Assembly (NCBI GenBank): GCA_025362585.1
Contig: JANYFR010000040.1
Location: forward strand, 1-44,590
Reading direction: 5' to 3'
DNA from: Acidimicrobiales bacterium
Lineage (GTDB): Bacteria; Actinomycetota; Acidimicrobiia; Acidimicrobiales; RAAP-2
DNA: 44,590 nt
In this document: in pieces, positions 21,977-25,397 of the stretch
Layout of the letters: every line of letters starts with the position of its first letter
Numbering within the stretch: the stretch's first letter is position 1
Notes under the pieces: generated by a model
What the model was told of the DNA's origin: nothing
The model's database searches: none
What the model saw: only the letters and a program-made list of their open reading frames with translations
Program-made: the position numbers and the translations under genes

Positions 21977-22052
21977 GCCTGGGTAGCTCAGTCGGTAGAG
22001 CAACGCATTCGTAATGCGTAGGTCAAGGGTTCGAATCCCTTCCCAGGCTCCA
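21977..22052 (+). tRNA. tRNA-Thr (anticodon CGT)
   Basis: The acceptor stem pairs GCCTGGG with CCCAGGC. The anticodon arm is ACGCA-TTCGTAA-TGCGT with anticodon CGT, reading ACG (Thr). The D-arm has AGCTCAGTCGGTAGAGC and the T-arm GGTTCGAATCC. CCA is encoded and included. Its 3' 30 bases overlap the end of murD2 on the other strand. Confidence 0.96.
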
Positions 22053-23363
22053 CTTCGCCACTAGCGCGCGGACTTCGGCGGTGAAGTCGTCCGAGCGCTG
22101 CTCCCAGTCGCGATACCGGTCGAAGCTTGGTGCGCCCGGCGAGAGCAGCACGACGCCACCCTCGTCGCCGAGCGCGCGTCGCGCGCTCTGTACGGCATCG
22201 CGCATCGAGTCGACGCGCGCCTGGGCGACCTCGGGCCCCCACTGGCGTAGTGCCTCGCTGATGCGCGAGCCCGCGTCGCCCATCGTCAGCACCGTCGTGG
22301 GCATTGAGCGATCCGCGAGAGCGACGGCGAGTGGCCGGTAGTCGACGCCGCGGTCGAAGCCGCCGGCGATGAGCGCCACGGGTCGGTCGGCGAAGACCTC
22401 GAGGGCCGCCAGGGCCGGAAGCACCGAGGTCGCGAGGCCGTCGTCGACGTAGTCAACGCGAACGGTGTCGTGCGTCTCACTCGCCGCCAGCGTGAGTCGT
22501 CCCCGCAGCGGCTCGAAGGTGGAGGCCCGCTCGACGACACGTTGACGCACCTCGGCGAGGGACCGGCCGGTCATCGTCGCGACGCCGTGCAGGGCCAGCG
22601 CGACGTTCGAATCGCTGTGGGCGCCGAGCAGCCCGAGGGCCGCCGCGACGTGGCTCTGGTCGGGGGCGACGAAGCCGACATCGCCCCCGAGTTGGCCACG
22701 AATCGATCGAAACGTCGGGCTGTCGGGCACGAGGGTGACGTGCTCGCCCCGCGCCCGGGTGAGCGACAGTTTGTCGTCGTGGTACGCCTCGAGAGAACCG
22801 TGCCAGTCGAGGTGATCGGCGCCGAGGGACGTGACGACGACCAGTCTGGGCGCGACGTCGACGTCGACGCACTGGAAACTCGAGACCTCGAGGACGAGCC
22901 AGCCCCGCGACGTGTCGATCGCCGGGTCGTACGGGGGCTGGCCAATGTTGCCCAGTCGCAGCGCCGCTTCGCCGATACTTTCGAGGAAGAACGACACGAG
23001 GGCGGTCGTCGTGGACTTGCCCTTGGTGCCCGTGATGGCGACCACGCGCGTTCGGTCGATGTCGTGGAGCCAGAGGTTGAGCGCGGAAGTGACCGCGACG
23101 CCGTGGCGTTCGAGGTTGAGCACGTCGGCGCGTCGGCGCGGTATGCCCGGACTCTTCACGACGACGTCGCACGTCAAGAGCGCGTCGAGGCCGCCCCGGG
23201 AGGACTCGAGCACTGACGGGTCGACGCCCGGCGCGTCGTCGACGAGCACGACACTCTGGGCGAGGCCGTCGAGACGTCGCGCGGTGGCGTGGCCCTCTAC
23301 GCCGTAGCCAAAGACGCCGACCCGGCGACCGGCGAGGTCAGCGAAGCCAGTGGGCCGGAACAC
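22023..23363 (-). CDS. murD2: MurD2-type UDP-MurNAc-L-Ala : L-Glu ligase
   Basis: The 446-residue Mur ligase has a Rossmann N-domain (FGYGVEGHATARRL), the ATP site GTKGKST (112-118) and the catalytic region DHLDWHGSLEAYHDDKL. The C-terminal ligase domain includes GGFDRGVDY and LLSPGAPSFDRYRDWEQRSDDF. On sequence alone it belongs to the MurD group. Because it follows murL, with a 26-base overlap, it is best read as MurD2, which adds L-Glu rather than D-Glu to UDP-MurNAc-L-Ala. The start is a GTG at 23363. The last eight or so residues (LGRDSNP) come from the antisense of the tRNA-Thr T-arm, and the stop also lies within the tRNA gene. A plain MurD using D-Glu remains the alternative. Confidence 0.85.
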   Translation of the reverse strand: MFRPTGFADLAGRRVGVFGYGVEGHATARRLDGLAQSVVLVDDAPGVDPSVLESSRGGLDALLTCDVVVKSPGIPRRRADVLNLERHGVAVTSALNLWLHDIDRTRVVAITGTKGKSTTTALVSFFLESIGEAALRLGNIGQPPYDPAIDTSRGWLVLEVSSFQCVDVDVAPRLVVVTSLGADHLDWHGSLEAYHDDKLSLTRARGEHVTLVPDSPTFRSIRGQLGGDVGFVAPDQSHVAAALGLLGAHSDSNVALALHGVATMTGRSLAEVRQRVVERASTFEPLRGRLTLAASETHDTVRVDYVDDGLATSVLPALAALEVFADRPVALIAGGFDRGVDYRPLAVALADRSMPTTVLTMGDAGSRISEALRQWGPEVAQARVDSMRDAVQSARRALGDEGGVVLLSPGAPSFDRYRDWEQRSDDFTAEVRALVAKWSLGRDSNP

Positions 23364-24624
23364 GACTGGGGCCTTCCGGAGTGAGCAGATCGTCGAAGTT
23401 GCGTTGGGGGCTTGCCAGCGCGGCCAGTTCCGCCAGCCCCGTCACGTCGGCCCACTCGTCGAGACGACTGACCTGCGCGAGCGCGACGGCACTCTCGTCG
23501 GGATCGCCCACGCACTCGAACGGTTTGTGGTCGAGGCCTACGCCCACGAGGACGCGTAACTGGTCCAGGCGCGCGGGATCGCTGAGAGGTTCATTCGCGA
23601 AAATCTTTCGAAGGGCGGCGCGCGAGAGGAACGGCGCGAGGATCAGGTTGACGAAGAGGCACTTGTCGCACGTGCCGCACCAAGCGGTCGCGCGCATCTC
23701 GCGCGCTTGGGCAAAGGCGCGGTTGCAACTTCGAAAGACGTGGTGGTAACGCTCGTGGTGGGCGAAGGACTGAGCGACCCACAGCTCGCTGCGATCACGC
23801 AGGAAACTGGCCACCACGAACTCGTCGCCGATGCGCTCGGTGACGGCGTTCGCGATCAGCCGTTCGGCATCCCAGGACTTACTCCACTGGTGGTTGATGT
23901 CAGCGTCGTGCCAGCGAAGATTGGGCACCGACGCGGAGTGTTCGTTGCTCATCACGACCGCGCCCCGGCCCGACGCGAGTGCCGCGACCACCGCCAGCAG
24001 CGTGATCATCGCGGTCACCGGCACGTGGCCGGCGAAGAAGGAGTCGTCGTTACGAATGATCTGGCCGTCGATGACCCGCGTCGCGCGCACGACGCCGAGG
24101 CCGGTCACTTCGGCCGTCTCCTCGAGCGGACTGAAGCGTCCGCTCGCGGGGCTGACGATGAACAGGGATCGTTCCAGGCGTCCGGCGAGCTCGGCGACGC
24201 TCACCACCGAGTCGATACCGCCGCCAAAGGGGATGAGCGCACGTCCGGCGTCGACGGAGGGCGTGCAACGCTCCGTCGCCGATCCGCCTTCGATGACCAC
24301 GTCGCCGAGCGGTAGGTCGTTGCGATAGGCGAACTCACCGAGGCCGTCGTGGAGGGCGGCGTGCAGGAGGGCCCGGCCCCGGTCGCCGAGCGGGGTGGTC
24401 CCGATGTCCACACGCCGCGCGGCGCCCGCCTTGTAGTAGGAGAGTCCCGCGATCAGGTACCACAGCTCGGCGACCGCCCGGACCGCCGGCGTCTCGAGGG
24501 TGCCGACCCCCTCGAACGTCACCCGCTCGATGAAGTCGCGGTCATCGAGTCGGTAGTGGCCCACGAGCGCGTCGGCGCTGACGTCGAGGCCGACGTAGCG
24601 AAAGACCTCCGCGCGTCTCTTCAT
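23338..24624 (-). CDS. murL: MurL-type UDP-MurNAc-L-Ala-L-Glu epimerase
   Basis: The 428-residue protein matches the MurL family, which turns the terminal L-Glu of UDP-MurNAc-L-Ala-L-Glu into D-Glu with ATP and Mg2+ (known from Xanthomonas). Visible features are the PP-loop-like IPFGGGIDSVVS (GGGIDS at 134-139), the conserved SNEHSASVPN at 226-235, HQWSKSWDAE, and a CGTCDKC cysteine cluster (C316, C319, C322). It normally works with MurD2 in place of the glutamate racemase MurI plus MurD pathway. The ATG overlaps the pgeF stop (ATGA), and its end overlaps murD2, so pgeF-murL-murD2 is one translational unit. Activity in this organism is inference. Confidence 0.88.
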   Translation of the reverse strand: MKRRAEVFRYVGLDVSADALVGHYRLDDRDFIERVTFEGVGTLETPAVRAVAELWYLIAGLSYYKAGAARRVDIGTTPLGDRGRALLHAALHDGLGEFAYRNDLPLGDVVIEGGSATERCTPSVDAGRALIPFGGGIDSVVSVAELAGRLERSLFIVSPASGRFSPLEETAEVTGLGVVRATRVIDGQIIRNDDSFFAGHVPVTAMITLLAVVAALASGRGAVVMSNEHSASVPNLRWHDADINHQWSKSWDAERLIANAVTERIGDEFVVASFLRDRSELWVAQSFAHHERYHHVFRSCNRAFAQAREMRATAWCGTCDKCLFVNLILAPFLSRAALRKIFANEPLSDPARLDQLRVLVGVGLDHKPFECVGDPDESAVALAQVSRLDEWADVTGLAELAALASPQRNFDDLLTPEGPSRVPAHWLR

Positions 24625-25397
24625 GCGAGCTCCTCGTCCAGTGCGACTCTCATGCTAGGACGACGCGCCACGAGTGCGATGCGACCGCAGGGTCGCGCGG
24701 CCCGGTCGCTAAAGAACGTCTCCGCGCCGTCGGTCGATTGACGCGAACGCGAAATGTTGCGCACGTCGACCCCGAGGCGCTCGAGCCGGTCGACCGTGAC
24801 AACCCCGAGGTCGAGACGTGACCGGTCGCCCAGGTCGGGGTGGAGTGCCCTCGCGACGTCGATGAAGCGCCCCGCGACGTCGGGACCGACCTGGTAGCCC
24901 TCACCCGAGATGCACGGACCGATGAAGGCGTGGACCGAACGTGGGACGGCGAACAGGCGCATCGCGCTGGTGAGCACGCCGGCGTCCAGACCCCGCCACC
25001 CCGCGTGGATAACGGCGAAGCGGGTCGAGGACTCGTCGACCAGTAGTAGGGGCACGCAGTCCGCGACGAGCACGCAGAGGGCGCCGTCGTCGCCGTCGCT
25101 CCACAGACCGTCGGCGCACGTCGATTGAACGGCCGAGGTGCCCTGGACGACGTCGGTGCCGTGCACTTGGCGAACGATGGTGAGCCGCTCGACGCCGCTG
25201 GCCTCCGCGACCCGTCGTCGATTCTCGATGACGTGGTCGGCGAGGTCACCCACGTGGTCGCCGAGATTCAGCGACTCGTAGGGACCGGCACTCACGCCAC
25301 CAAAGCGATCGGTGACGAAGGCGTCGACGCCGAAGCGACGAGCGCCGACGAAGGCGTGGACTCCGAGGGTGCCTCTCATTTCGAGCGAGAGCGTCAC
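24621..25397 (-). CDS. pgeF: Peptidoglycan editing factor PgeF (YfiH/laccase-domain)
   Basis: About 258 residues. The protein has the DUF152/laccase-domain signatures: TDRFGGVSAGPYESLNLGDH, VRQVHGTDV, LVADCVPLLL, AVIHAGWRGL and IGPCISGEGYQVG. The conserved His and Cys of the metal site are visible. E. coli YfiH removes wrongly added L-Ser from UDP-MurNAc intermediates; other members are annotated as polyphenol oxidase or purine nucleoside enzymes. The start chosen is the GTG at 25397, which forms a GTGA overlap with the fur stop; an ATG at 25379 is also possible. The gene sits ahead of murL and murD2, which favours the peptidoglycan role. Confidence 0.88.
   Translation of the reverse strand: MTLSLEMRGTLGVHAFVGARRFGVDAFVTDRFGGVSAGPYESLNLGDHVGDLADHVIENRRRVAEASGVERLTIVRQVHGTDVVQGTSAVQSTCADGLWSDGDDGALCVLVADCVPLLLVDESSTRFAVIHAGWRGLDAGVLTSAMRLFAVPRSVHAFIGPCISGEGYQVGPDVAGRFIDVARALHPDLGDRSRLDLGVVTVDRLERLGVDVRNISRSRQSTDGAETFFSDRAARPCGRIALVARRPSMRVALDEELA

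Follow-up and report, generated by a model that had tools for sequence, protein, structure and literature searches.

The locus

We analysed a 44,590-nucleotide stretch of DNA (the window: contig JANYFR010000040.1 of assembly GCA_025362585.1) from an Acidimicrobiales bacterium, in which three genes of peptidoglycan metabolism, pgeF, murL and murD2, overlap on the minus strand behind a regulatory gene of the Fur family. The genome comprises 2.09 Mb in 64 contigs (96.4% complete), of which the window is contig 20; the named loci nearest to the window are from metagenome-assembled genomes of Acidimicrobiales or Acidimicrobiaceae. Gene order, homologies, residues, the absence of MurI, a predicted fold and conserved operator boxes were computed here. 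They suggest that this group of uncultured bacteria very probably adds L-Glu to the cell-wall precursor and then flips it to the D form, by the MurD2/MurL route. A preliminary description, made from the letters of the stretch alone, had located the three genes with overlaps of 26 and 4 bases, and the open reading frames (ORFs) on the minus strand bear this out.

22023..23363, minus strand: murD2; TIGR01087, 247.7 bits; the sole MurD above cut-off in the genome; K113, L319, R348, A413 and P414, but D182
23338..24624, minus strand: murL; NF041275, E 1.3e-85; predicted model with pLDDT 95.5; QatC Z 19.2, QueC Z 14.1
24621..25397, minus strand: pgeF, predicted UDP-MurNAc-monopeptide amidase of the murL-linked clade; PF02578, E 2.5e-54; Y227 replaced by D
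25394..25786, minus strand: Zur-like Fur-family regulator, first gene of the operon; PF01475, E 1.1e-24; divergent from znuACB; the GTG start is a proposal
25820..25832, no strand: predicted operator box 1, TGGAATCGTTCCA; pattern TN[GA]AANNNTT[CT]NA; in tandem with box 2, 24 bp apart
25844..25856, no strand: predicted operator box 2, TGGAATGGTTCTA; same pattern; overlaps the proposed znuA start
25848..26744, plus strand: znuA, metal-binding protein of an ATP-binding cassette (ABC) importer; PF01297, E 7.1e-28
26741..27592, plus strand: znuC, ABC ATPase with a His-rich tail visible in the translation; PF00005, E 9.7e-29
27589..28419, plus strand: znuB, ABC permease; PF00950, E 3.2e-44; best NCBIfam match AztB, below its cut-off
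21977..22052, plus strand: tRNA-Thr (CGT), convergent; overlaps the 3' end of the murD2 ORF

The overlaps measure 4 bases between zur and pgeF (GTGA), 4 between pgeF and murL (ATGA) and 26 between murL and murD2. For pgeF the start is the GTG at 25397, the longest ORF of that frame beginning at 25487. Because the tRNA gene covers the final 30 bases of the murD2 ORF, the closing residues of that frame are read off the antisense strand of the tRNA.

MurL and the absence of MurI

The MurD2/MurL pathway was described for XOO_1320/XOO_1319 of Xanthomonas oryzae and observed in vitro also for Micromonospora sp. and Salinispora tropica (PMC8788868); the route itself is thus already known, actinobacteria included. 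In such a scheme MurD2 would ligate L-Glu and MurL would then epimerise it one way, from L to D, using ATP and giving AMP, with no glutamate racemase. As in X. oryzae, murL and murD2 of the window are adjacent, MurI is absent, and MurD2 residues stand at the positions of Lys348 and Lys319; unlike X. oryzae, the order is pgeF-murL-murD2 behind a Zur-like gene, and position 182 holds Asp rather than Glu.

The murL product had been named from its GGGIDS, NEHSAS and CGTCDKC motifs, and the identification holds: the motifs are present in the translation, and the NCBIfam model NF041275 (equivalog MurL_Xanthmoales) matches residues 5-425 of 428 with 287.5 bits and E 1.3e-85. The aligned Lysobacterales sequences share 35-38% identity with the protein, whose score falls far below the NF041275 cut-off; we therefore do not file the protein under that equivalog. 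Full-length similarity to known MurL, an adjacent MurD2 and a genome without glutamate racemase place it in the broad MurL family of Feng et al. Among 47 aligned MurLs, G134, G136, D138 and S139 are invariant, as are five cysteines, C300, C316, C319, C322 and C371.

The preliminary description had proposed searching the rest of the genome for murI and a second murD. Family-model scans of this genome (96% complete, 64 contigs) gave no match to MurI (TIGR00067); D-amino acid aminotransferase, another source of D-Glu, was not searched for. Nine proteins matched the MurD profile, but only that of the window passed the cut-off (211.95 bits), and the next best were MurC and MurE by BLAST with the E. 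coli proteins. Contig 10 carries the row murE, mraY, ftsW, murG, murC, with no murD between mraY and ftsW.

The same exclusion was seen on a larger scale, in counts that are not independent because the genomes sampled are related. In the class sample (198 genomes), MurL was found in 17 and MurI above cut-off in 113, with both in none (0/17 MurL genomes against 113/181 others). In the family sample, MurL was present in 112/120 genomes, including 83 of the 84 with completeness of 90% or more and contamination of 5% or less; MurI passed the cut-off in 0/120. Nor was MurI found in any of 23 further MurL genomes chosen from 79 loci. MurL and MurI are mutually exclusive in the sampled class genomes, in agreement with the MurI-independent route claimed at the outset. 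A PF01177 match that might have been a hidden MurI was rejected as such, since it proved to be a TIGR00035 Asp/Glu racemase, above cut-off in only 12/120 family genomes. In G141, a genome with MurL, a 29-bit match to TIGR00067 coincides with the TIGR00035 racemase.

Some genomes fall outside this division. Neither MurL nor MurI was above cut-off in 68/198 class genomes, four of which have near-full MurI matches just below it; many of the 68 belong to a single genus (f21/g40), are ~1 Mb in size and have a divergent MurD of ~400 aa. G145 (L186, L169), from the same order and 99% complete, has a canonical MurD, yet it lacks MurL and any match to MurI. At four Dactylosporangium loci (L072, L073, L075, L079) no MurD2 adjoining MurL was found by blastp, and their genomes show no MurI. 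Five Mycobacteriaceae loci (L074, L077, L080, L084, L100) have MurL-MurD2 and no MurI match, in a family outside the genus list in the available text of PMC8788868.

Residues that mark MurD2

Compared with E. coli MurD (whose numbering is used here), X. oryzae MurD2 has Glu for Asp182, Arg for Lys348, Pro for Ala414 and Phe for Leu416; the exchanges E197D and R358K in X. oryzae MurD2 alter its stereospecificity, K319T makes the E. coli enzyme accept L-Glu, and mutants thus tie R358 and the K319 position to L-Glu use (PMC8788868). We compared 102 distinct MurDs from MurL loci with 30 from class genomes without MurL, of which 27 have MurI above cut-off and three (G145, G170, G174) have no MurI match. 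Three positions separated the two sets completely in the residues used: 348 (R in 102/102 against K in 30/30), 319 (L in 79 and I in 23, against K in 30/30) and 113 (K in 102/102 against N in 29 and D in 1). Positions 413 (A in 100 and M in 2, against C in 30/30) and 414 (P in 95 and A in 7, against A in 30/30) also differed, while 416 was non-separating (F in 75/87 against 30/30). At 182, the MurL-associated proteins have D in 78 and E in 24, the others D in 30/30. Glu182 is therefore not general for the partners of MurL and would be a feature of X. oryzae-like MurD2; positions 113, 319 and 348 appear to be the better markers.

The window protein has K, D, L, R, A and P at 113, 182, 319, 348, 413 and 414, including the Arg at the Lys348 position that corresponds to Arg358 of X. 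oryzae. The suggestion that the ligase overlapping murL is a MurD2 is supported by these residues (K348R, K319L, N113K, A414P), with Asp182 kept, unlike in Xanthomonas.

A predicted fold for MurL

In the available text of PMC5808125 and PMC8788868 the mechanism of MurL is called unclear for want of a recognised domain in it. A model was built with AlphaFold2 from 47 MurL sequences (pLDDT 95.5, pTM 0.95) and compared by VIA-align with the 1000 best chains from Foldseek. The top match was QatC (9y01_B; Z 19.2, 308 residues aligned, root-mean-square deviation 3.5, 12% identity) and the second QueC (3bl5; Z 14.1, 190 residues aligned), followed by Cap9 (Z 13.7), argininosuccinate synthases (~10) and other PP-loop enzymes (about 8 to 10.7). 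On this predicted model, the similarity to QueC and QatC stands well above the unrelated rows. In Foldseek itself the single match below 0.001 was Cap9 (E 4.2e-4), and QatC was not among the 50 best matches listed. The MurL cysteine pattern, C(x)15CxxCxxC, resembles the zinc motif of QueC, C(x)8CxxCxxC, and C(x)19CGxCxxRR of QatC.

Sequence searches count against such a kinship. None of the 47 MurLs matched PF06508 (QueC) in Pfam at E up to 1 or any PADLOC model, that of QatC included. In a profile search of the PDB with MurL, the best matches were not significant (E 0.25, the PP-loop stretch of TtuA only; TilS 0.77), and hhalign of MurL against E. coli QueC alone gave a non-significant probability of 3.2% (P 0.014) over the NGHVPVT and CGxCxxC parts. 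As no search gave a significant sequence link to QueC or QatC, the connection rests on structure and the cysteine pattern. MurL shares with QatC (of the anti-phage defence system qatABCD) and QueC (of preQ0 synthesis) the predicted fold, an SGGxDS-like loop and a Cys(x)nCxxCxxC pattern; it differs in its 12% identity, in a GGGxDS loop, in matching neither PF06508 nor the QatC profile, and in its substrate, a nucleotide-sugar peptide. We predict for MurL a PP-loop fold of the QatC/QueC type with a cysteine metal site.

QueC proceeds via an adenylate. It converts a carboxylate (CDG) to a nitrile in two ATP-dependent steps (PMC13329287). Adenylation of the alpha-carboxylate was proposed for MurL by its authors because AMP is formed (PMC8788868, PMC5808125), and the predicted fold therefore fits the chemistry that they put forward. 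MurL would then epimerise its substrate on a QueC/QatC-type scaffold, with the adenylation mechanism and the metal both putative. The word MurL is absent from the accessible portions of PMC13329287 and PMC13279940, and neither the link to QueC/QatC nor the linkage of pgeF and murL was reported in the literature searched, a scope outside which lay the original 2017 report and most subscription papers. Within it, a predicted fold is new for a protein described in print as without known domains.

The pgeF-murL-murD2 cassette

Where pgeF starts no more than 3 kb from murL on the same contig, we counted the two as linked; of 110 family genomes that have both, 88 are linked and 22 are not. Linked and unlinked genomes never share a genus (16 genera linked; g105, g107, g115, g120 and g121 unlinked), and in a quick tree the MurLs of the two sets form separate clades (SH-aLRT 100 and 99). 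Outside the family, pgeF lies beside ftsZ in three of four MurL class genomes, the fourth not being placed, and blastp at 1e-6 found no PgeF at the MurL loci of Lysobacterales, Mycobacteriaceae and Dactylosporangium. Since 22/110 family genomes keep pgeF elsewhere, and the three class genomes keep it beside ftsZ, the route does not require the linkage. Most simply, one lineage would carry a pgeF-murL-murD2 unit that replaced the native pgeF, murD and murI, and another would carry murL-murD2 alone. The pgeF-murL-murD2 cassette is new. The MurLs of Nocardioides ferulae (L070, L076) lie inside the linked clade, and the L070 stretch shows no PgeF. Contigs titled as Saccharibacteria, Acidobacteria or Streptosporangiaceae (L046, L037, L042, L049, L062, L069) share the Acidimicrobiales gene order, and these bins may be mislabelled.

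E. coli PgeF (YfiH) takes the amino acid off UDP-MurNAc-L-Ser, a product of MurC, and is roughly 900- to 3,000-fold more active on UDP-MurNAc-monopeptides than on the corresponding dipeptides (PMC8844914 Table 1). Its catalytic residues are Asp89, Cys107 and His124; MurNAc is stacked against Tyr227, and the amino acid is recognised by Gln69 and bound at its carboxylate by Arg235 (PMC8844914). The window protein resembles it in the PF02578 domain (E 2.5e-54, above cut-off) and in the catalytic and specificity residues, with Q69, H71, D89, C107, H124, R228 and R235 all kept. It differs in lying beside murL rather than ftsZ, in missing the cut-off of the equivalog TIGR00726 (119.6 bits against 141.15) and in having Asp for Tyr227.

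This exchange is common to the cassette. Residue 227 is D in 52, H in 5 and A in 5 of 62 distinct murL-linked PgeFs (L068, misaligned near this residue, is D in two alignments and counted here as H), against H in 38, Y in 18, F in 6 and W in 2 of 64 others. The latter are a selection (the 22 that scored best, 32 picked, and 10 of family genomes without linkage); in the stretches retrieved, 63 of them adjoin ftsZ and one is truncated by a contig end. In MurL genomes with an unlinked PgeF (three of the class outside the family and ten family members examined), residue 227 is Y, W or H; Asp therefore goes with linkage and not with the use of MurL. A branch (support 99/93 and 98 in two trees) separates the linked PgeFs from the ftsZ-type PgeFs that occur in this family. 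That the native pgeF merely relocated from ftsZ to murL was weighed and set aside, as the tree does not group these two kinds; a constraint that groups them was rejected only moderately (p-AU 0.0276, in a quick tree with E. coli as sole outsider). The PgeF of the cassette thus appears, from alignments and trees, as a separate and new clade in which the sugar-stacking aromatic is usually Asp.

The grouping had been taken for an add-edit-epimerise module, with PgeF acting on the same UDP-MurNAc intermediates as MurD2 and MurL. The genes are indeed grouped, but such a module is supported only in part. Because the known PgeF edits the MurC product before MurD2 acts, the order would be edit, add, epimerise. 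Co-expressed, PgeF would most likely strip wrong first residues (L-Ser, Gly) from UDP-MurNAc-monopeptides ahead of MurD2. For MurD2, MurL and PgeF alike, the enzyme activities are assigned by homology and are putative.

A Zur-like regulator

The first gene of the predicted operon encodes a Fur-family protein (PF01475, E 1.1e-24). It scores 43.9 bits against NF008646, the NCBIfam Zur equivalog with a cut-off of 167, and higher against Fur and PerR models, all below cut-off; having missed the Zur cut-off, it is called Zur-like. Its setting, next to znu genes and with conserved palindromes, is that of a Zur: two 13-bp palindromes lie 24 bp apart between zur and znuA, and the pattern occurs three times in the window, the only tandem pair being these boxes. 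Among 25 distinct upstream regions taken from relatives whose Zur is at least 55% identical, 20 have at least one box and 13 have both, compared with 0.45% and 0% of 2000 mononucleotide shuffles. The boxes are absent from nine regions with a more distant regulator.

Zur regulation of znuA in Streptomyces (PMC5472717) is alike in its Fur-family gene, palindromic boxes before znuA and AANNNTT core. The box arms differ (TNGAANNNTTCNA against the actinobacterial znuA consensus tGaNNatSatNNtCa, PMC5472717), and in the window the repressor gene precedes peptidoglycan genes. The predicted Zur-like repressor, divergent from znuACB and with conserved tandem operators, is new. Placed at the head of the predicted operon, it probably uses the two predicted operators to repress both znuACB and its own transcript, and a promoter upstream of zur would read through to murD2. 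The earlier idea of a Fur-family regulator over the module stands in part: a Fur-family gene does overlap pgeF, but it is better described as Zur-like, and it adjoins pgeF in only part of the family, many relatives having the genes within a few bases.

Alternative explanations

Several observations weigh against the L-Glu route. The MurLs of the window, of the 17 class genomes and of the 112 family genomes all miss the curated NF041275 cut-off of 700 bits. The window MurD lacks the Glu of X. oryzae MurD2 (Glu197) at the Asp182 position, Asp182 being the sole residue that counts against MurD2. The genome also encodes a TIGR00035 Asp/Glu racemase above cut-off (G000:C53:77525-78181, L001). An ordinary MurD could then ligate D-Glu supplied by this racemase or by an aminotransferase, an enzyme outside our searches, with MurL doing something else. 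However, the racemase is found in 12/120 family genomes and MurL in 112/120, and Lys319 and Lys348, both conserved in 30/30 MurDs of genomes without MurL, are each replaced in the window protein. Given in addition the mutual exclusion of MurL and MurI, we regard this alternative as highly improbable and retain the L-Glu route.

Within that route, the roles of PgeF and of the regulator are each open to another explanation. The linked PgeF might have been retuned into a dedicated proofreader matched to the glutamate route, as the MurNAc-stacking residue is Asp in most linked proteins and aromatic or His in 64/64 ftsZ-type ones, the linked PgeFs share one side of a well supported branch, and E. 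coli YfiH has weak activity on dipeptides. However, Gln69, His71, Asp89, Cys107, His124, Arg228 and Arg235 are kept in 62/62 linked PgeFs, so that the known monopeptide chemistry should remain; linked PgeFs with His (five) or Ala (five) at 227 exist, and MurL genomes with an unlinked PgeF cope with an aromatic or His. Retuning is therefore unlikely, and editing of monopeptides is preferred. The balance is much closer for the regulator, where there is almost an even chance that the linkage of zur is merely positional, with internal promoters driving pgeF-murL-murD2 and the operators controlling only zur and znuACB. One would expect an essential step of wall synthesis to require expression that does not depend on zinc, and zur is not beside pgeF at some family loci (L018, L021 and several of L222-L231). 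Against this, the zur stop overlaps the pgeF start in the window, and in many relatives the genes lie within a few bases.

Implications

The locus presents a known pathway in a new lineage, with a new gene arrangement and a testable fold for MurL. The residue signature tells MurD2 from MurD in genomes. The predicted QatC/QueC fold would offer a concrete mechanism for MurL and tie a cell-wall epimerase to enzymes of tRNA modification and anti-phage defence, and the cassette with its PgeF clade provides a natural test of whether editing matches the glutamate route.

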